From the IMG/VR virus record IMGVR_UViG_3300035698_005636, positions 1 to 33,193 of that record: DNA of 33,193 bases; one strand, 5' to 3'. The notes below the pieces were generated by a model. The model saw only the letters and a list, made by a program, of their open reading frames with translations. It did no database searches and had not been told where the DNA came from. Made by a program: the position numbers and the translations under genes. This DNA comes from a virus. Shown piece after piece: positions 15,105 through 32,463 of this stretch. The number at the start of each line of letters is the position of its first letter. Position 1 is the stretch's first letter.

Positions 15105-16475
15105 TTATCGTCGTTGCTGGCTTCTGTCAAACCGGGACGACGAGCGTGACTGCGTGTTGACGTTGGGTGGTCGCCAAACTTCCTTGTTGGAGTTGGTGAT
15201 CTTAGGGAATAGCTCCGTGATGCCCCACACCAGTGCGTCCAGTCGATCCGGTGACTTGAGACCCACGTAACCGCTCAGGTTCATCGAACACATCTGGTCC
15301 TCAAGCTCACTGAAGTAACCAACGTGGTAGACCTTTCCCTGTTCATACAATGCGGCCACCGGCTCGGCTCGTACCACTTTACCCCTGCTGGCATTGACCT
15401 CACGGTACGGGATGTCCGGGTTGACGGCATGGACGATAGCCCGAACCATGTCACCCCCAAAGTTCTTCTCACCGATGACCCGGTCAGCACTGTGGCGACT
15501 GAAAGCCTCGGAGACGACGGTGCCCCAGCTCTCCGGGCTGTATCGACCGGACAGATCCTCGAGCACGTAAGCCTTGCTGTCCTTACCCAAAGCGACGACA
15601 ACGATGCCGATCTCATCGCTTCTGAAGTCCTCAGGACCCGCGCAACCACTGGGGTCGACAGCCACTACAATACGCAGGAACTCAGGGATCTCGTCGCCAC
15701 CGAGCGCACGTTGTTGGTGAAGCAGCTCATCCGTCCACAGTGCCCCATCGGCATCGTCAGCGAACTGTCCCAGCAAGAACCGATTGCGCTCTTTGGTGGG
15801 CATCGACTCAAGTAATCGAATGTAGCCTTTGTCCAGGTTCTGCGTGTTGTCCGCTGGGTTGATCAGGTAGAACCCATAGTCGTATGGGTGCTCAACCGCC
15901 ATCTTGCTGAACGGATCGCGTTTCATGACGAACCGTTGGTAAGTCCAGTGACGCTTGGACGGTGGGTTGAAGTCGGTGAAGCTCTTGAGTTTGAGGTTCT
16001 GGGTCTTCTGTGCGAGTCGAGTCAAGGCCAACAGCATGGACTGATAGGGTATCTGGCTGGCCTCGTTGAAGAAGATGGTCGCAAACTCCATGCCAAGAAT
16101 TTTCTCAACACGCTCCTTGTCGTCCAGGCCACCGAACCAGATCTCGCTACCATTGGGCAACGTCATGTACCAGTCGGTCTTGTTCATCATGCTGTCGGAG
16201 CTGGGCATCTCGGGGAAGCACAGTTTCATGACCTTGGGCAACGTGTCGTTGATGACCGAGGCTTTGACGCTGTTGAACCGGAAGCGGAAGACGACGTGTC
16301 GACTGTTGGGCTCCCGTATCGCCCTGAGAATGACCTGTCGCATCAACAGGAACGTCTTACCGGACCGACTGCCGCCACCAAGGGCGATGTGGACAGCTTC
16401 GGAGATCAGTACATCCCGCGCCTTGTCTTGCGCGGGGGTGATTGTGAATTGGTCAATGTTGGCGGCTGCTGTCAC
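15105..16475 (-). CDS. terL: Terminase large subunit (456 aa)
   Basis: ATP-driven packaging motor with a headful or cos nuclease. Walker A GGSRSGKT is at residues 34-41. The Walker B strand is ATIFFNEAS at about 132-140, with Glu138 as the likely catalytic acid. The RNase H-like nuclease begins with VAVDPSG (271-277). A further acidic segment, SPDRLDALVWGI, lies near the C-terminus and fits the third nuclease site. It works with the small subunit (4-bp overlap upstream) and docks on the portal encoded downstream. The C-terminal 25 residues are Ser/Arg/Gln-rich and probably disordered. Confidence 0.92.
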   Translation of the reverse strand: MTAAANIDQFTITPAQDKARDVLISEAVHIALGGGSRSGKTFLLMRQVILRAIREPNSRHVVFRFRFNSVKASVINDTLPKVMKLCFPEMPSSDSMMNKTDWYMTLPNGSEIWFGGLDDKERVEKILGMEFATIFFNEASQIPYQSMLLALTRLAQKTQNLKLKSFTDFNPPSKRHWTYQRFVMKRDPFSKMAVEHPYDYGFYLINPADNTQNLDKGYIRLLESMPTKERNRFLLGQFADDADGALWTDELLHQQRALGGDEIPEFLRIVVAVDPSGCAGPEDFRSDEIGIVVVALGKDSKAYVLEDLSGRYSPESWGTVVSEAFSRHSADRVIGEKNFGGDMVRAIVHAVNPDIPYREVNASRGKVVRAEPVAALYEQGKVYHVGYFSELEDQMCSMNLSGYVGLKSPDRLDALVWGITELFPKITNSNKEVWRPPNVNTQSRSSSRFDRSQQRR

Positions 16476-17206: not shown

Positions 17207-17707
17207 AAATGTCCCGTGTCTACAGTGACGCCAGTGTCTAACGGGACCATCATGGATAGGGCGCTCCATTGATAGTGCCTGCAAACATTGCTTTTGAAAC
17301 GCCCATTCTACGCGACGTCCCGTGTGTCCCGTCGTTTGAAAACCACACGGGACCCTTTAAACGCCCAGTACATGCACCTTTGCGGCAAAATGTCCCGTGT
17401 CCCGTCATTTTTTCCAATTCGCTGGCACTCTGGCACTACCACAGTCATCTCAACGCTGTATCTCTGTATCTCAGCATATCCTTCATTTCCACCGACTTGT
17501 ATATTTAGACGGGACACGGGACATTTTCCCTAAGAAGCCCAGTACATGCGGTCTCAAGACGTCCCGTCCCCTTTTCAAACGCCGAACAACACGGGACGTC
17601 GCGTAGAATGGGCGTTTCAAATCTTATGTTAGTACTCGCTTACCTACCTCCCCAATAGACATAGATGTCCCGTCAGACGCCGCCGTCACCGTAGACACGG
17701 GACATTT
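17207..17707. repeat. 501-bp interrupted palindrome with 13 GTCCCGT boxes
   Basis: Both arms align without gaps around a single centre (base 17,457), with about 64% identity over 247 bp by hand count. The best-matched blocks are 17,207-17,247 with 17,667-17,707 (imperfect), 17,293-17,325 with 17,589-17,621 (perfect, 33 bp) and 17,387-17,406 with 17,508-17,527 (perfect, 20 bp). The 7-mer GTCCCGT or its complement begins at 17211, 17241, 17317, 17326, 17347, 17392, 17399, 17509, 17516, 17561, 17591, 17667 and 17697. Six of seven left-arm boxes have an exact mirror. A 13-bp direct repeat GCCCAGTACATGC is at 17,363 and 17,537. No credible gene lies here. Possible roles: replication origin, terminase recognition site, regulator array or fold-back mobile element. 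Confidence 0.93.
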
Positions 17708-17722
17708 TGCCCGAGATAGAGC

Positions 17723-17786
17723 AATTTCCAGAGTTCGCTATCTTTTCCAGAGTTCGCTATCTTTTCCAGAGTTCGCTATCTTTTCC
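17723..17786 (+). repeat. Three 19-bp direct repeats upstream of rightward promoter
   Basis: The unit TTCCAGAGTTCGCTATCTT recurs three times with a strict 19-bp period (CCA at 17,728, 17,747 and 17,766), followed by a partial fourth copy that runs into the -35 box. Such head-to-tail repeats next to a promoter are typical of activator/repressor arrays or replication iterons. The spacing is just under two helical turns. They lie 16 bp beyond the palindrome. Confidence 0.85.
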
Positions 17787-22967: not shown

Positions 22968-23164
22968 TTTAAAAACTCCATAATTTCAGCGTACTCAGGG
23001 TGCATTTCGTATTGACCCACTCGCACAAAAGCTGTGATTGTTATTTGTTTCAGCACATCGGCTCGACTGGCGTATACGAACTTGCCGCGATCCTCCTCAG
23101 CCACGAACTCACTGTTGAGCCAGTGGCGGTACTGCGCCCTGTTCCTGGTGACGACGACAATCAC
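22964..23164 (-). CDS. Small hypothetical protein (66 aa)
   Basis: IVVVTRNRAQYRHWLNSEFVAEEDRGKFVYASRADVLKQ has a strand-helix-strand opening like a small alpha/beta domain (first strand VVVTRN, later strand KFVYAS). GTG at 23,162-23,164 overlaps the stop of the Ala-repeat gene. Its stop overlaps the membrane-protein start. It is not recognised. Confidence 0.55.
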   Translation of the reverse strand: MIVVVTRNRAQYRHWLNSEFVAEEDRGKFVYASRADVLKQITITAFVRVGQYEMHPEYAEIMEFLK

Positions 23165-23946
23165 GCAGCTTCCAGCAACCGGATAAGCTCTTCAGCAATC
23201 AGGTCTAGCTCCGCCGCCAAGTCTGCCGCCAAGTCTGCCAAGTCTGCCAAGTGTGCCGAGCGTGCCGAGCGTGCTGCCGAGCGTGCCGCCAAGTGTGCCG
23301 ACTCTGCCAAGTCTGCCAAGTCTGCCGAGCCTGCCGCCGAGTCTGCTGCCGAGCGTGCCGCCAAGTGTGCCGAGCGTGCCGCCAAGTGTGCCGCCAAGTC
23401 TGCCGCCAAGTCTGCCAAGTCTGCCAAGTCTGCCGCCGAGTCTGCCGCCGAGTCTGCCACCGAGCGTGCCGCCAAGCGTGCCGAGTCTGCCGCCGAGCGT
23501 GCCAATACCCCAGACAACGAATCATCGTGGAGTTGTATGCACTGATCGATGGCTGCGATGACCACGGTTCTCACCGACTCATCTAGGTTGGCCAACGACG
23601 CAACCCGCACGCGGTTAAGGCCGAGAATAAACAGGTTAATCTGGTTGGGAACCTTGGACAAATCGACCCCCGGCTTGATGGCTTCAAGAAACCGTAGCGA
23701 CAGAGTGGGCCACACTTCAGCGCTAGTTCCTTCATGCAGGGAATCCAAGAGATACGCTATTGATGCGGGTACGCCAAGCTCACTCTCGAAATGGGCATGG
23801 GTGTAATTGTTTAAAGTGCAGCCAACAGCGCAGCCCTTGCCGTTCTCAAACCCAGTACCGCGTATCAACTCATCCGCGTCCATATGGGCCTGCATTCTGT
23901 TAATGTAGAAGTCTTTAACTTCTTGCTTGCCGTGATATGCGATCAT
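23161..23946 (-). CDS. Phage Ala-repeat protein (261 aa)
   Basis: The N-terminal domain (MIAYHGKQEVKDFYINRMQAHMDADELIRG...GFENGKGCAVGCTLN) belongs to a protein type I recognise from many phages, with a conserved GCAVGC motif and LGVPASIAYLLDSLHEG further on. From about residue 146 to 250 the protein is a long run of AARSA/ADLAD/ADSAA units predicted to form a continuous helix. The ATG at 23,944-23,946 has GGGAG 7 nt upstream. The repeat DNA makes all frames on both strands open here, but only this frame has the conserved domain. Function is unknown. Confidence 0.75.
   Translation of the reverse strand: MIAYHGKQEVKDFYINRMQAHMDADELIRGTGFENGKGCAVGCTLNNYTHAHFESELGVPASIAYLLDSLHEGTSAEVWPTLSLRFLEAIKPGVDLSKVPNQINLFILGLNRVRVASLANLDESVRTVVIAAIDQCIQLHDDSLSGVLARSAADSARLAARSVADSAADSAADLADLADLAADLAAHLAARSAHLAARSAADSAAGSADLADLAESAHLAARSAARSARSAHLADLADLAADLAAELDLIAEELIRLLEAA
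23200..23510 (-). repeat. Degenerate triplet-phase repeat tract coding for Ala-rich helix
   Basis: This is a 300-bp tract built from short units such as GCCAAGTCT and GCCGAGCGT in varying order (read on the + strand). All lengths are multiples of three, so the coding frame is kept. Units are shuffled rather than purely tandem, which suggests repeated slippage and recombination. It encodes the C-terminal helix of the Ala-repeat protein. Confidence 0.9.
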
Positions 23947-23975
23947 TGCGTCTCTCCCGTGAGTGAGCATGGATC

Positions 23976-25690: not shown

Positions 25691-25719
25691 ATCCTATAGA
25701 ACACTGACGCACCTGTCAA
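25691..25719 (-). promoter_or_regulatory. Leftward promoter for the small-gene array
   Basis: Leftward TTGACA (25,714-25,719), a 17-bp spacer and TAGGAT (25,691-25,696). The -35 box overlaps the stop codon of the primase-helicase gene. The predicted start is near 25,684, about 20 bp before the first array gene. This would let the accessory array be expressed separately from replication genes. Confidence 0.6.
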
Positions 25720-28088
25720 CCTTCAAAGTTACCTTCTATAACCTGACCGTATCCTTGGGCGTTGATGTAGTGGTCGCGGACGGTTGCAGGGTTGTCGAGT
25801 TGGTGTACGGGGTGGCCTTTGGTGGCAAAGATATAAGGTCGTTTGTTGTCCTCCCATTCCAGCTTGCGGTTGAGACGACCACCATCTGTCAGCCCTGCAA
25901 TTTTAACGTAACCCACGTTGCGTAGTATGGTTTTCATCATCGACGCTGGGCACTGTTTCTCGAGCCCCTCCGTCTTGAGCATTTCCTTCAACTTGTGCGA
26001 TGAGATATACCCACCTCGGAACCCATGGCTCTGATCCGCTACTGCAGTGTTTATCGCAGCTTCGACATTGCCCATGTTTTCTTGAACCGCTTCGGCTCTA
26101 CTGCTGGTCATTGGTGCGCGACGACTGCCTACTGCGGGGTTCATCTCGTCAGGTATCACGGCATGCTTCATTTCATACGCGCAAATTTCAAGACCGCCTT
26201 CTTCGTACAACCACTTCGTCAATTTGTTGAAGTATTCAGTGGTCAGCCCAGCAGCGATCAGATCCTCATGATCTTGGGGTGTGGTCCAGAAGATGCCCCA
26301 TCGACGATCTTCGTTCTGAATGGGCACACCTGTATGCCAGTTGGTCGATGCGAGGAAGTTGGCACACTGGCGCTTAGTCGTTTGATCGACACCCTTCGCG
26401 GTAACCTGGACGTAGGGTTCGGTGATGTAGGCTTTCATTTTCTCCATGACTTCCCACTTGTTACCGACTTTGATCTCGTCAATGTGGATGAGAATATTGC
26501 TGGCAATGTATGAGTTGAAATTATTGTCGATGTCACTCGGGTCCAGCTTATGAACATTCTTCATCGTGTGACCTCCAACAGCGTACGCCAAAATGTTAGC
26601 GATGATTCCCTTTCCACAACCTTGAGGTCCCTGCATCAACGGCATCCACAATGCTTTAACGCCTGGGTTCTGAACGACAAAACACAAGTACCCGTATAAT
26701 TTCCGCCAGTCGTCCTCCACATTCCAAAGTCTGCTGAAGACGTCATACATGGGGGCGGCATTGCCTTGGCGCATAACCACCTTGGGTAGCATGCAGACAT
26801 TGACCATCGTCTCGCCACCCTCGTTGAAGACCTCACCATAGGGCTTGTCAGGTCGAAAGCAGGATGTGTGTACTTGAGGTGGTCTGAAATTTTTGTTGTT
26901 CATAAAACCCTCCCAGGCGTTGGTGGTTGACTTGCTGTTGTCCTCGTTGAGTGAGAATTCCCCACCCCCGTAGACTGATTTGAACACGTCAGGTTTCACG
27001 ACACCCCATTGCGGCGTCAGCACCCTGTGTTCCCCAGCGATGTAGATGCAGCCCACGAACCGCTTGTGGATTGACCCCGCCAAGAATGCCCCTGTACTGG
27101 TGCCATCTTCGTGGACCACCGCTGGCTCGAGCACCTTGGTGGCTTTGTCTTGCCACACTTGGGTGCAGGCGTTCACCGCGTTGGTGATGGTGAATTTCGA
27201 CAGATACTCCTTATGACCCGTCCACTTCTCTCTGACGAGCCCTGAGCGCCACATGAGCCGCTCTATGCGTTCGTGGTTCTTACCGGTCGCCCATGCCAAT
27301 CGTGCCGCCAGCGACTGGTCAGCGTTGCTCTCGTCGAAGTCTCGACTCTCATCTGGCCACTTGCGACCCAGCGCCTCTACGTTGCGAGTCCACAGATCAT
27401 CGAAGCAGATGTCCTGAATGGGTTGACCACCAAATACAGCAGCCGCCTCGGGCTTAGGTTTGATGGACCGCAGCTTCTCGATCAGCTTGTCGTCGTCCTC
27501 AATACCATTCCACTCGTCGACTGGTGTGTTGCGCCATTCCACCAGCGTCACATCAGTCGGGGCGAACCATGCATTAATCAACGGGGATGGGTCTATCACA
27601 GTGGCGGCATCGCCTACCGCATTGGGCATGTCACCCAGTGCGATGTAGCGATCCGAGCTGTAGAATTCTGCATTGATGCTGGCGTTTTTCTTACGGTGTT
27701 CGGGCATCTCCCCATGCCATGAGAAAAACGCGTGAAACCCGGTGCCGCTGACAGACGTCTCAACCAATGCGCCTGGGAGATAGGACAGCAATTGCCCAAC
27801 AATCGGGGACCACGTCCCATCTGGTAGCAAACAACTGTCACCATCGAGACCAAGGAAGGGGTCATTTTTGGTGAGCACAAACCCCATCCCCAGCTGGGCC
27901 GGGAACGCCGCGCACATTGCCACCGCGTCAAGGTATGTCATCCAATTGACGGGGTCCAAGTGGTTGCCGCCAGGAACGCCGTCAGGAGTACAGGGCACCT
28001 TGCGTGGTTTCTTCGTGGGGTCGACGTTGGAGATCGACGTCCATACCACCCACTGGGGATACCGGGTCATCTCGTCATAGGTTGACAC
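25716..28088 (-). CDS. PrimPol-SF3 primase-helicase (790 aa)
   Basis: This is a bifunctional replication protein. The N-terminal primase-polymerase domain carries LDGD (81-84, catalytic Asp pair) and SGTGFH (114-119). A helical bundle with NHERIERLMWRSGLVREKW and YLSKFTITNAV (271-305) matches the helicase-binding domain of NrS-1-type polymerases. The C-terminal SF3 AAA+ helicase has Walker A GPQGCGKG (487-494), Walker B LIHIDE (533-538), sensor STN (581-583) and the DRRW arginine region (594-597). It would both prime and unwind. It follows the TetR-like gene by 3 bp, and its stop overlaps the -35 of the array promoter. Confidence 0.9.
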   Translation of the reverse strand: MSTYDEMTRYPQWVVWTSISNVDPTKKPRKVPCTPDGVPGGNHLDPVNWMTYLDAVAMCAAFPAQLGMGFVLTKNDPFLGLDGDSCLLPDGTWSPIVGQLLSYLPGALVETSVSGTGFHAFFSWHGEMPEHRKKNASINAEFYSSDRYIALGDMPNAVGDAATVIDPSPLINAWFAPTDVTLVEWRNTPVDEWNGIEDDDKLIEKLRSIKPKPEAAAVFGGQPIQDICFDDLWTRNVEALGRKWPDESRDFDESNADQSLAARLAWATGKNHERIERLMWRSGLVREKWTGHKEYLSKFTITNAVNACTQVWQDKATKVLEPAVVHEDGTSTGAFLAGSIHKRFVGCIYIAGEHRVLTPQWGVVKPDVFKSVYGGGEFSLNEDNSKSTTNAWEGFMNNKNFRPPQVHTSCFRPDKPYGEVFNEGGETMVNVCMLPKVVMRQGNAAPMYDVFSRLWNVEDDWRKLYGYLCFVVQNPGVKALWMPLMQGPQGCGKGIIANILAYAVGGHTMKNVHKLDPSDIDNNFNSYIASNILIHIDEIKVGNKWEVMEKMKAYITEPYVQVTAKGVDQTTKRQCANFLASTNWHTGVPIQNEDRRWGIFWTTPQDHEDLIAAGLTTEYFNKLTKWLYEEGGLEICAYEMKHAVIPDEMNPAVGSRRAPMTSSRAEAVQENMGNVEAAINTAVADQSHGFRGGYISSHKLKEMLKTEGLEKQCPASMMKTILRNVGYVKIAGLTDGGRLNRKLEWEDNKRPYIFATKGHPVHQLDNPATVRDHYINAQGYGQVIEGNFEG

Positions 28089-28091
28089 GGG

Positions 28092-28388
28092 CTACACCAG
28101 TGAGTTTGCGATGCGTACCTTCAGGTCCTTGGGCAACCGGCGCACCATGGGGTGGCGCATCGCCAGACCTTGTCCGAGTATTCTCAGATTGATGTGTTCA
28201 CGAGCATATCGAATGACCTCGAGCTGCAGTTCTTCCATGGTGCTAAAATATTTATTGACTAATCCCGTTGCACACTGGGCCTTCTTGGCCACGTCGTCGC
28301 GCTTAACGTTCATGTAACCCTTTGTCTCTGCTAGCTTTACGGCAGCCGTGAGTATTTGAACAGCGCGATCTGGATTGGGGTGGCTCAT
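28092..28388 (-). CDS. Short TetR-type HTH protein (98 aa)
   Basis: The sequence RAVQILTAAVKLAETKGYMNVKRDDVAKKAQCATGLVNKYFST is a typical TetR N-terminal DNA-binding domain: helix 1, HTH, then the conserved YF after the recognition helix. The large ligand-binding domain of TetR proteins is missing; only about 45 residues follow. It should bind operator DNA without a classical inducer pocket. It directly precedes the primase-helicase gene and has its own promoter upstream. Confidence 0.75.
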   Translation of the reverse strand: MSHPNPDRAVQILTAAVKLAETKGYMNVKRDDVAKKAQCATGLVNKYFSTMEELQLEVIRYAREHINLRILGQGLAMRHPMVRRLPKDLKVRIANSLV

Positions 28389-28443: not shown

Positions 28444-28895
28444 GTGGTGAACTTAAAATCACCACCGCGAGCGATCACTAACTCTCCAAATTTACGTTGT
28501 GCAATCTCTCTTGGTGTACCGGTGTATTTCCATCCTGGCTTCTTCACCTCGCGCGCTGTGAATTGGCCTATCTTGTATCCGACCATCTGCGGGGTCACTA
28601 GTACTTGTGTTATCCCAACTAGATCTGACGACTTTGTTTTCTCATTCATTGCCTTGGATTCGTTGGCCAAACCGTAGCGAATAAAATTACCACTGGTATC
28701 CTCACAAGCCCCAACATTATTTCTCCACAGTAGGTCGCCAGCGTATGCAGCATCCAACCTCACTCGTTGTGACGCACCTGCCTCACTCGTTGCCCCCACT
28801 GACACGGGAGCTTCGAACAGTCCCATCTCTTTCCTGAGGTCGTCCACCGCTGCTTGGGATATCCCCCACTTGATTGCCCATGTGTAATAGTTCAT
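28440..28895 (-). CDS. VRR-NUC endonuclease (151 aa)
   Basis: This is a VRR-NUC restriction-fold nuclease. It shows LLWRNNVGA (55-63), a core Asp in KSSDLVGI (D91), and the catalytic pair in QFTAREVKKPG (E116-x-K118), followed by QRKFGELVIARGG (about 133-145). Phage members are thought to act as Holliday-junction or flap nucleases in replication and recombination. The gene overlaps the SF2 helicase by 4 bp, suggesting the two work together. The N-terminal 45 residues (HTH-like, KWGISQAAVDDLRKEMG) may help bind DNA. Confidence 0.82.
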   Translation of the reverse strand: MNYYTWAIKWGISQAAVDDLRKEMGLFEAPVSVGATSEAGASQRVRLDAAYAGDLLWRNNVGACEDTSGNFIRYGLANESKAMNEKTKSSDLVGITQVLVTPQMVGYKIGQFTAREVKKPGWKYTGTPREIAQRKFGELVIARGGDFKFTT

Positions 28896-30532
28896 TCCAC
28901 TTCTCCTAGGTACTCATTGATAATGGTCGCTAGCTTCGCAGCCTCCGGTTTCCCTAGAGCCTGCGCACTCAACACGTCGATTCCGAACAGGTGATAGAAC
29001 ATTCGATAGCTCTCACTGTCGGGCTTTCCTTTGGTCTGTTGAAGGTGGGCGAACCATGCAATTGATTCGCGTAACGCACCTTGCATTTCCTGCCTAGCTT
29101 TACCCACCTTCAACTGCGAGTTAACAACAATACCCGCCATGCCTGCATGCTTCATTCGCTCAGCGCGCGCATAAATGTCCTCATCAATTTTAGCCACTTC
29201 CCCACGCATTTCCGCTAGTGCTGTGGGGTCCAACTCATGCAGGTCACCATCGACATGTTCCGGTGCGCTGCGATCCGCAGGAACATGGTAGTGTCCACAC
29301 CAGGGGCAGAGCTTGTTTGTCATTGGGTAAGGTTGGGTGCATTCAACACAGTATCGAAGGGGTATTTCATCGTCGCGGTTCTTATTTTTAGGTGACCCCA
29401 TCCTGTCGTCCAGTGTCCACTGGCGGTCTTTGTCAGGCAGTCCGTGCAACTGAACGTTACCCGCGTGATCGATGATAATGGCGTGGGTCTTACCTTCCAT
29501 GGGCCGAAGGGCACGACCGAACTGTTGACAATACAGACTATAACTCATGGTACGTCGTGCCATGCTCACCACTTCAATGGCAGGTAGGTCAAACCCCTCA
29601 CCGAACAGATCCACATTGACAAGTTGTAATAATTTACCGTCACGAAATTGCTGGATGATTTCAGAGCGCATTCTGTCAGGGGTCTTGGCGCTGACGACTT
29701 CAGCAGGCACCCCCGCTGCGTTGAACTGTCTGGCGATGTCCGACGCTGTCTGCACATCCGTGGCAAAAGTAACGCCGCGTTTCCCAGGAGCGATGCGTAG
29801 GTAGTGTTGCACGACGTCACCGATGAGATGGGACTCACGGACTGCTGTTTTTAATTTCTTCTGATTATAATCACCTGTCGCGGTGATGTTGACCTCTTGG
29901 TAGTTGACATCACTGGGGGGAGCGAACACTCGATATTCCGTGAGGTATCCCGTCTCGATCAGTTCTCTCATTGACACCGACTCGACCATATAATCGATGA
30001 TACCGCTGGCGTGACGACCTAAGCCCTTGCCGTCTGCCCTGCAGGGGGTGGCCGTGACGCTGAGCCCTAGCGCGTTGGGCATCATGGCGCAGGCTTTGCC
30101 CCACTTGTTATCCCGTATGACGTGATGGCCTTCATCCGTGACCCACAGTGAGACGGAGTGGAGCCATTGTTTGTAGGCTTTTCCTCGACTCATCAGTGTG
30201 TCGACGCCAATAACGGCAACGGGTGCGTTGGGGTACACCCTATTGCTTCCGAACTCTTTTAGGTGCTGACCGACAATGAACTTTTGAAGGGGTGAAGGGG
30301 CAATGATCCTGTGGTCAACCCCCTGCCGACCGATGGCCATACTGAGCTGGCTGACTAACTCTTGGCGGTGAGCGATGACCGCCACTGTCCCATTGTGCTC
30401 GTCGACAATCTCGCCAACCGTGTGGGACTTACCTCCACCTGTTGGCATCACCCCCATAACATTAGTATGACCAGCACCCCACGCGTTGTAGATATCTTGC
30501 TTCCATGTTTGTTGATAACCACGATCACTCAT
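28892..30532 (-). CDS. SF2 DNA helicase with C-terminal zinc ribbon (546 aa)
   Basis: DEAD/DEAH-type superfamily 2 helicase. Motif I PTGGGKS (30-36), motif II DEGH (133-136), motif III TATP (160-163) and motif VI QFGRALRP (337-344) are all present. A four-Cys zinc ribbon follows (C395, C398, C409, C412). The C-terminal 120 residues are helical and may bind partners. It should translocate on or unwind DNA during replication, repair or recombination together with the VRR-NUC nuclease. It is the first leftward gene from the divergent promoter region. Confidence 0.87.
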   Translation of the reverse strand: MSDRGYQQTWKQDIYNAWGAGHTNVMGVMPTGGGKSHTVGEIVDEHNGTVAVIAHRQELVSQLSMAIGRQGVDHRIIAPSPLQKFIVGQHLKEFGSNRVYPNAPVAVIGVDTLMSRGKAYKQWLHSVSLWVTDEGHHVIRDNKWGKACAMMPNALGLSVTATPCRADGKGLGRHASGIIDYMVESVSMRELIETGYLTEYRVFAPPSDVNYQEVNITATGDYNQKKLKTAVRESHLIGDVVQHYLRIAPGKRGVTFATDVQTASDIARQFNAAGVPAEVVSAKTPDRMRSEIIQQFRDGKLLQLVNVDLFGEGFDLPAIEVVSMARRTMSYSLYCQQFGRALRPMEGKTHAIIIDHAGNVQLHGLPDKDRQWTLDDRMGSPKNKNRDDEIPLRYCVECTQPYPMTNKLCPWCGHYHVPADRSAPEHVDGDLHELDPTALAEMRGEVAKIDEDIYARAERMKHAGMAGIVVNSQLKVGKARQEMQGALRESIAWFAHLQQTKGKPDSESYRMFYHLFGIDVLSAQALGKPEAAKLATIINEYLGEVE

Positions 30533-30622: not shown

Positions 30623-31288
30623 ATGCAACTGACACTTGATAATTATGAATCGCTGGGAACACTTCGGGCTGCTGCTAAGTTCATCAGTGAGATAGCTGAC
30701 CACCGTGAGGCCAACCCTTGCGACGACAACCCATTCGGCGATGTTTTGACCGACGCCATTGCAATAGGTGCTGATGTGGCAACCCCCAACGAGCCGACCG
30801 TCGCGTTACTGACCGAGGTTGCCAAGCTCGACCCCACCACTGTGATTCCTGAGTCAATCAATCTCAACAGCCCCGATGTAGATAGCGCTGGATACCCACA
30901 TGATGAGCGTATTCACAGTGGTGGCAAGACTGCCAATAAGGACGGCACTTGGAAGAAGCGCAAAGGCGTTGAGGCAGCACTCGTTGAACAGGTGCAAGCC
31001 GAATTGATGTCAACGCCTGTCGTCGCCGACGCGGCAGACGTAACAGCCGCTGCGGTGTTTGGCAACAACCAGCAGACAGTACCTGTTGTCGTTACTGAAC
31101 AACCCGTTCAGACTTCCGCAACCCCAACATGGCCCGACGTATTGCAGCAGATTGCTACAAAGCGTAACGCGGGTGCGCTTGACGAGAACATCTTGAACAA
31201 CTTCATGTCGGCGAATCAGGTCAGCGCATTCCCATTGCTGGCCACCCGTACTGACCTGTTCCCTGCGCTGCTCCAGGCTATCTCGTAA
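30623..31288 (+). CDS. Conserved phage protein with DERIHSG motif (221 aa)
   Basis: Function unknown. The segment DSAGYPHDERIHSGGKTANKDGTWKKRKGVE (about residues 87-117) is a conserved signature I recognise from phage and prophage replication-region proteins. N-terminal helix (residues 1-30), then an Ala/Val/Thr-rich linker (130-170) and a C-terminal helical part (WPDVLQQIATKRNAG...). A site (AGAAGGA) precedes the ATG. Its stop overlaps the start of the nuclease gene (TAATG). It probably takes part in replication or recombination. Confidence 0.65.
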   Translation: MQLTLDNYESLGTLRAAAKFISEIADHREANPCDDNPFGDVLTDAIAIGADVATPNEPTVALLTEVAKLDPTTVIPESINLNSPDVDSAGYPHDERIHSGGKTANKDGTWKKRKGVEAALVEQVQAELMSTPVVADAADVTAAAVFGNNQQTVPVVVTEQPVQTSATPTWPDVLQQIATKRNAGALDENILNNFMSANQVSAFPLLATRTDLFPALLQAIS

Positions 31289-32463
31289 TGGAATTGGCAC
31301 ACGCACCGCTGGCACCATCGTCCGCACCTCATTGGGTATTCTGCTCAGGGAGTGTGATGGTGTCAGCGGGGGTTGTACTCGACGAGACGGATGATCAGCG
31401 TGAGGGTACAGCGACACACTGGGTTGGTGAACGCATATTAGCCAGCTATAAACCAGACATGCCCATCATTATAAGCGCTGACATCATCGGCACACAGGCT
31501 CCCAACGGAGTACTCGTGGTCGAGGAAATGTGGGACGCGGCTCAGGTGTACGCCAATGAAATTCTGATGGACTGCATGGTCGATGGACTGTTGGACGAAT
31601 TGCATGTTGAGGAGCGCGTGATCTGCACTGCGATCCATGAACATTGCTGGGGGACCCCAGACTGCTGGTCGTTCGACATGGCCAAGCGGGTTCTGCACTT
31701 GTGGGATTTCAAATATGGTCACAGTTCGGTTGACGCCTTTGAGAATTGGCAGATGATTTGCTACATCCTTGGGATACTAGATATCATCACAGGTGGTAAG
31801 CCATTGCAGGACCACGGCATAAAGGTCGTCGTGAAAATTGTGCAGCCACGGTGCTACGACGGTCAAGGTCCGATTCGTACATGGGAGTTCGATGCTATTG
31901 ACATTCGAGCGTACGTCAATACTCTCAGCGCTGCGGCCCATAAGGCAATGGCAATCGGGGCGCAGTGTGTGACCGGTCCTCATTGTAAAAATTGCACGGG
32001 TTCGATGCACTGCCCGGCGATACGTGATGCCACCGCCAACATCATCGACCATGCGCGTGACGCAGTGCCCTCACCCATGAGCGACGTAGGTCTGGCTTAC
32101 GAGCTGGGTAAGTTGGAGAGTGCTGAAATCCTGATCAAGGAACGCAAGGATGCTCTGAAGATAGACGCGGAGCATCGCATTAGAGCAGGCACGTTGATGC
32201 CCGGACTGGCTTTAGAACAGCAGTACGGCAACAAGAAATGGAACATGGAACCGAGCATGGTGATCAGCACAGGTGAACTGCTGGGGGTTGATTTAGCGAA
32301 GCCCGTTGACGTTCTTACGCCGACACAAGCCGTGACCATGTTGAAGAAGAATAACGTGGACCCATCAGTAATTGACGGTCTCTACAGTTCACCCCAATCG
32401 TACATGAAATTAGTTGTGGACGATGGATCAAAAGCAAAACGCATTTTTAACGGAGCAATATAA
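31288..32463 (+). CDS. DUF2800 family Cas4/RecB-like nuclease (391 aa)
   Basis: PD-(D/E)XK nuclease of the DUF2800 family. Visible features are the N-terminal WVFCSGS with Cys19, EGTATH (39-44, motif His), the Asp in GTPDCW (D125), and the core LWDFKYG (D140-x-K142) followed by NWQMICY (153-159). Three more Cys (C233, C236, C242) near the end of the domain could, with C19, bind an iron-sulphur cluster as in Cas4/AddB. It probably processes DNA ends for recombination. It lies between the DERIHSG protein and the DUF2815 protein, a standard phage neighbourhood. Confidence 0.82.
   Translation: MELAHAPLAPSSAPHWVFCSGSVMVSAGVVLDETDDQREGTATHWVGERILASYKPDMPIIISADIIGTQAPNGVLVVEEMWDAAQVYANEILMDCMVDGLLDELHVEERVICTAIHEHCWGTPDCWSFDMAKRVLHLWDFKYGHSSVDAFENWQMICYILGILDIITGGKPLQDHGIKVVVKIVQPRCYDGQGPIRTWEFDAIDIRAYVNTLSAAAHKAMAIGAQCVTGPHCKNCTGSMHCPAIRDATANIIDHARDAVPSPMSDVGLAYELGKLESAEILIKERKDALKIDAEHRIRAGTLMPGLALEQQYGNKKWNMEPSMVISTGELLGVDLAKPVDVLTPTQAVTMLKKNNVDPSVIDGLYSSPQSYMKLVVDDGSKAKRIFNGAI

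Follow-up and report, generated by a model that had tools for sequence, protein, structure and literature searches.

The 501-bp centred palindrome at positions 17207–17707 of the window (the whole 33,193-nucleotide stretch analysed here, a 33-kb viral contig) is, with a probability of roughly three in four, the replication origin of this phage. As judged from sequence, its GTCCCGT heptads would be read by the phage's own initiator, most likely through the C-terminal domain of the primase-polymerase/SF3 helicase encoded at 25716–28088 on the minus strand. An origin was among the candidates put forward in an earlier sequence-only reading of this DNA, and the comparative evidence described below supports it.

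When bases are paired so that their coordinates sum to 34,914, 160 of 250 pairs are complementary; centres across the window average 62.4 (sd 7.2), and the runner-up reaches 97. The axis proposed from the sequence alone is thus the best palindrome centre of the whole window, and a repeat search returned the same three nested arm pairs that had been noticed then (17207–17247/17667–17707, 17284–17353/17561–17630 and 17384–17425/17489–17530). The window contains 16 copies of GTCCCGT or its complement ACGGGAC, where shuffled sequence has 4.5 ± 1.8 (none of 100 shuffles reached 16), and 13 of the 16 copies fall within 17211–17703, as originally counted. The exact mirroring of six of the seven left-arm boxes, also reported before, is far above that of non-box 7-mers (22 of 165, p=3.5e-5). 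A blind search for any mirrored 7-mer found 6 pairs at this array and never more than 2 at shuffled loci.

The innermost boxes are contiguous tandem heptads (GTCCCGTGTCCCGT at 17392–17405 on the plus strand, facing a second pair at 17509–17522 on the minus strand), which converge across a 103-bp central spacer (17406–17508). The spacer contains GTATCTC repeats and is the proposed unwinding site. Exactly 45 bp outside the inner boxes, start to start, there is an outward-facing box on each side, at 17347–17353 (minus) and 17561–17567 (plus). Auxiliary boxes start at 17317 and 17326 (17317–17332, plus), the latter being the only box with no mirror partner, and the mirror of 17317 lies at 17591–17597 (minus). 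The ends of the array are formed by two inverted box pairs, one on the left (17211 plus and 17241 minus, 17211–17247) and one on the right (17667 plus and 17697 minus, 17667–17703). The spacing between starts is constant at 30 bp in four box pairs. The central spacer is 57% A+T, compared with 46% in the arms; relatives' spacers have 76–89%, and that of phage L183 has 40%. GC skew, which had been suggested as a check for an origin, showed no origin-like switch in the window. Both 45-bp intervals also carry a direct repeat (CGCCCAGTACATGC / AGCCCAGTACATGC, at 17361–17375 and 17535–17549), and AAACCCAGTA-like words occur in the matching intervals of L003 and L208; a second, asymmetric motif may therefore be present there.

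To the left of the array lie the genes for the terminase small subunit (TerS, PF03592, 16472–16975, minus), whose start is about 230 bp from the end of the array, the large subunit (TerL, 15105–16475, minus), a head-tail connector and tail proteins. Since it carries its own terminase, connector and tail proteins, the window is not a phage-inducible satellite island. On the right side, three perfect 19-bp direct repeats (TTTCCAGAGTTCGCTATCT, 17725–17786) lie directly upstream of a strong sigma-70-like promoter (TTGACA-17-TATAGT) of a rightward operon and are possibly an operator; by sequence, the operon looks like a set of lysis genes. Further right is a leftward replication module encoding a ResIII/DEAD helicase (28892–30532, minus), an unnamed protein, a 98-aa TetR_N protein (28092–28388, minus) and the 790-aa primase, with a DUF2800 exonuclease beyond (31288–32463, plus). 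The order helicase-TetR-primase is common to the window, Klebsiella phage KpV52 and Shewanella phage SppYZU01. The array is about 8 kb beyond the 3' end of the primase gene.

Located between divergent operons, with the promoter and the 19-bp repeats adjoining its right side, the array could be an operator or activator of late genes (packaging leftward, lysis rightward), read by the TetR-like protein, whose gene stands beside the primase in both the window and L183, or by another regulator. However, the arrays of L183, L003 and the L105 family are not between divergent operons, TetR_N is also present in Jedunavirus KpV52 and in SppYZU01, both without the array, and at least 12 boxes in mirror order over 500 bp go far beyond a usual operator. 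We consider this reading very unlikely. The TetR protein was rejected as a general reader of the boxes; among the tested phages with an array, four lack TetR_N.

Sites of the omega and ParR type typically consist of contiguous heptads in direct and inverted order, and a partition or silencing centre bound by a ribbon-helix-helix (RHH) or similar protein would account for this arrangement; in phage G001, a second carrier of GTCCCGT boxes, an RHH gene follows the array. Yet no ParA or RHH gene was recognised among the window proteins searched, and the neighbour conserved beside arrays across phages is an SF3 primase, which makes a partition or silencing role extremely improbable.

A scan for GTCCCGT clusters in other phages, as the sequence-only reading had recommended, revealed one other viral contig with the pattern (L083/G001), which has nine boxes. 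In G001 a DUF5906 primase gene comes just before the array, and DUF2800-like, DUF2815-like and polymerase genes are also present. Its head genes appear, from their sequences, to be Mu-like and unrelated to those of the window, and no TerL match was found. By blastp, the two phages clearly share only the DUF2800 exonuclease and the primase-helicase. A second pattern was found in a group of related phages (L092, L097, L099, L100, L102, L103, L105, L106 and L107), in which the array starts in or just past the 3' end of the DUF5906 primase gene; as a control, DUF5906 was present in 3/40 and 1/48 other viral contigs. In all, G001, the L105 family, L018, L183, L197–L216 and Paenibacillus phage Wanderer have their arrays 0–3 kb downstream of a DUF5906/VapE SF3 primase gene, and in NrS-1, L105 and L197 the array is directly 3' of the primase. 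The boxes associated with relatives of the L105-family primase are AAGTGAC, GTGACA, GGTTCAAG, GTAGCAA, AACCGTA, CCGCTAC and CTGTAAC, while L018 has TGTTCCG boxes beside a VapE-type primase.

The sequence of the box differs from phage to phage but the plan does not: convergent tandem boxes surround a spacer of 73–106 bp, often with an outward box 43–46 bp away. We compared 14 arrays of unrelated phages that differ in their box, and in every one the boxes on either side of the largest gap (73–106 bp) point into it. An outward box at 45–46 bp is shared by the window, L183, the L105 family, L197 and others, and the plan also fits four additional array carriers of one TerL family, with a spacing of 43–46 bp. 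Tandem-pair cores were detected at 24 loci in 2.5 Mb and at none in 2.3 Mb of shuffled sequence. Each lineage thus seems to have its own "start here" box in the same layout. Absence of the symmetry in close relatives had been named as an argument against function; relatives were found to have the symmetry. In L003, which is closest to the window by TerL, a centred palindrome occupies the same place; its box is GTCCTTA, and its centre shares the GTATCTC repeats. L183, whose NrS-1-type primase is 35% identical to that of the window, has a 12-box array (box ACCCCGT) in which five of six boxes are exactly mirrored. Among L183, L233 and L235, boxes are 80–84% identical and spacers 42–52% (p 1e-6 to 5e-10), in support of the selection on boxes suggested earlier.

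A genome-wide pattern scan gave 15 matches, mostly chance or simple repeats, and GTCCCGT arrays are absent from KpV52, PEAT2 and SppYZU01, the closest named relatives by primase. Many of the phages with an NrS-1-type primase that we examined (Jedunavirus, PEAT2, SppYZU01 and most of L174–L193) have no such array, and Listeria phage P40 has none near its primase. With respect to the palindrome itself, a blastn search against phages returned no match. Its long imperfect inverted arms with subterminal repeats resemble a fold-back (MITE-like) mobile element that the phage might have captured, as had been proposed. Nevertheless, no target-site duplication was seen at the window array, comparison with 50,697 phage records found nothing similar to its DNA, and in relatives the geometry and position stay the same but the box sequence differs. 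We therefore reject this origin for the palindrome, its probability being close to negligible.

Several further loci were noted during these searches. Paenibacillus phage Wanderer, a named and cultivated example of the array class, carries, immediately behind its annotated DNA primase, GTAACAG boxes that surround an AT-rich spacer (L229, 5370–5640). L145, an exception to the association with SF3 primases, has a CAGTGTA array with the same sign order before TerS (701–1036); its helicase is of DnaB type by sequence, and no SF3 primase was detected on this 20-kb fragment. Dense TTCGGGACA/TTCCCGTTT repeats in a Nitrosomonas MAG (L166, 7640–7900) resemble another box array. In GC-rich viral contigs that gave no PF19263 match (L110, 1934–2050; L155, 2932–3048; L128, 7623–7728), GTCCCGT clusters are arranged in another, partly divergent way.

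Since the arrays of the window, L003, L183 and L145 lie directly before TerS, which is a common place for cos sites, and the array of NrS-1 also touches TerS, we put to the test the proposal that the array is a terminase recognition site (pac or cos), where TerS would bind the boxes and packaging would begin. We collected 80 phages with an L183-type TerL and counted the 43 with at least 7.4 kb of sequence upstream of TerL. Arrays were present in 3/6 phages with an SF3 primase and in 0/37 without one (p=0.0016). Within one TerL family, therefore, arrays occur only with the SF3 primase, and their presence does not track the terminase family; in four further array carriers of this set, the sequence ends before the primase region. 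Moreover, a near-perfect palindrome provides no packaging direction, and the arrays of G001 and the L105 family are kilobases away from TerS. A terminase site thus fits less well than a replication origin, and we regard it as unlikely, also in view of two natural changes of box in relatives, described next, in which the differences cluster in the primase C-terminus and not in TerS and, in one of them, homologous arrays persist despite strongly diverged TerL.

In the first switch, most genes common to phages G066 and G067 show about 98% identity, but their box has changed throughout the array (AACCGTAAC/AACTGTAAC). Their TerS proteins differ at 3 of 168 residues. Their primases differ at only 6 of 557 core residues but at 10 of the last 75 (p=1.4e-6). 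Modelling predicts a winged helix for this C-terminus (pLDDT 80). In structural comparison it came closest to RFX (Z 8.4), followed by origin-bound Cdc6/Orc1 (6.9) and the origin-binding domain of P4 (6.5), and the tail domain of NrS-1 also aligns with it (Z 5.5). In the predicted fold, N71K and I72G are at the start of the recognition helix, and V87S, K89R, G92D and S94L are in the wing. In the second switch, phages with GTCCC or GTCAC boxes have homologous arrays and replication genes that are mostly 94–99% identical, although their TerL proteins are only 33% identical. Here the primase C-terminus differs by 24% and the core by 5% (p~5e-8). Pairs with the same box showed C-terminal/core divergence ratios of 0–2.4, mostly near 1. 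At the level of sequence, the box is coupled in both switches to the C-terminus of the primase and not to TerS. Each switch could be a single recombination patch that carried array and C-terminus together. A chimeric array, with GTCCC boxes on the left and GTCAC boxes on the right, is present in L107 (10359–10780) and also in L196, as if two box specificities had recombined.

The primase of the window matches the profiles of the SF3 helicase domain (PF19263, E=6e-18) and VapE-like proteins (E=1e-5), contains the NrS-1 HBD (PF22763), and matches the solved domains of NrS-1 polymerase. A single-sequence search for its viral relatives gave none, but an alignment-based search did find some. Its C-terminal domain has a winged-helix-like topology; Foldseek returned no significant fold match for it, and the best Z in structural comparison was 6.2. 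Because of this, because arrays are missing from most of the examined phages with NrS-1-type primases, and because in one NrS-1-type phage pair a small change of box (TACCCCG/TTCCCCG) came without excess C-terminal divergence, we only infer that the window primase is the reader of its boxes.

NrS-1 encodes a homologous primase-polymerase with HBD and SF3 helicase domains, and has an array of the same class. Eleven of its 14 genomic TTACACT boxes fall in the 400-bp gap that separates the primase stop (17051) from the TerS start (17459), around a 100-bp spacer that is 76% A+T in a genome of 59%. The array differs from that of the window in its box, in adjoining the primase and in being less symmetric. 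The order primase-array-TerS in NrS-1 suggests that this order is ancestral and that primase and array became separated by other genes in the window. The annotated hypothetical gene NRS1_29 (L312, 17055–17456) spans the array proposed as origin and is unlikely to be a true gene. The paper on the NrS-1 structure had suggested no more than two 8-nt recognition sites as a possible origin (PMC7102993).

The statement in the sequence-only reading that no element of this design had been described is half right, since the origins of SaPIs and PICIs, the phage-inducible islands of S. aureus and E. coli that use Rep or Pri-Rep, share its basic organisation. These consist of two oppositely oriented sets of iterons flanking an AT-rich segment, and a PICI pri-ori plasmid is maintained (PMC6092414). 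The SaPI Rep protein reads iterons located just downstream of rep through its C-terminal domain, apparently as two hexamers (PMC7581432). Likewise, the window has two sets of short boxes in opposite orientation around a spacer and a gene for an SF3-type initiator, and the covariation of box and primase C-terminus in the relatives, as read from their sequences, would parallel C-terminal reading of iterons. On the other hand, the element belongs to an autonomous tailed phage and not to a satellite island, it forms a 501-bp palindrome in which additional outward pairs stand at fixed distances of 30 and 45 bp, and its spacer is weakly AT-rich. While the island ori is directly 3' of rep, that of the window would be 8 kb from the initiator gene, so that two features of the PICI definition, satellite carriage and location directly 3' of the initiator, are missing. 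In phage P4 (ori/crr), the initiator-primase-helicase alpha reads short repeats via a winged helix (PMC4234260); the modelled primase C-terminus of L213 aligns with its origin-binding domain (1ka8, Z 6.5), although alpha has a TOPRIM primase. Finally, pRN1 has a stem-loop origin of about 100 nt 3' of a primpol-SF3-winged-helix gene, as also noted in phage BIP-1 (PMC4234260). It resembles the arrays in being downstream of a prim/pol-SF3 initiator gene and in its inverted-repeat symmetry, but has no iterons.

Taken as an origin, the array of the window might work as follows. The heptads would be recognised by the phage's own initiator, for which we infer the primase, and the two groups of boxes facing each other across the ~100-bp spacer would load two helicase hexamers head to head. 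The loaded hexamers would open the central spacer as the melting site, and two forks would start, giving bidirectional replication. The outer inverted pairs could add affinity or serve copy control. We further lean towards the view that tailed phages, including NrS-1, whose origin had not previously been identified, share an unrecognised origin architecture: an outward box, ~45 bp, convergent tandem heptads and a spacer of ~75–105 bp, all mirrored. In it the geometry would be conserved and the heptad would be a freely evolving password, changed across the array in concert with the winged helix of the SF3 primase-polymerase. Such a design across autonomous phages would amount to a widespread way of initiating phage replication and would connect satellites with their helper phages, and origins could be predicted from sequence by geometry alone, with no need to know the box. 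Near-identical phages with different boxes provide a ready system to study how initiator specificity changes. A concrete origin is also proposed for NrS-1 polymerase, and, since this enzyme has already been purified and crystallised, the proposal is directly testable.

Two other repeats were observed in the window. The C-terminal half of a 269-aa protein (23161–23970) is a degenerate Ala/Ser/Asp/Leu repeat (ADSAADLADLAA...) encoded by dense DNA repeats, and at the contig end (33106–33193) a tandem 15-bp repeat encodes QQPMQQQP in the last open frame.
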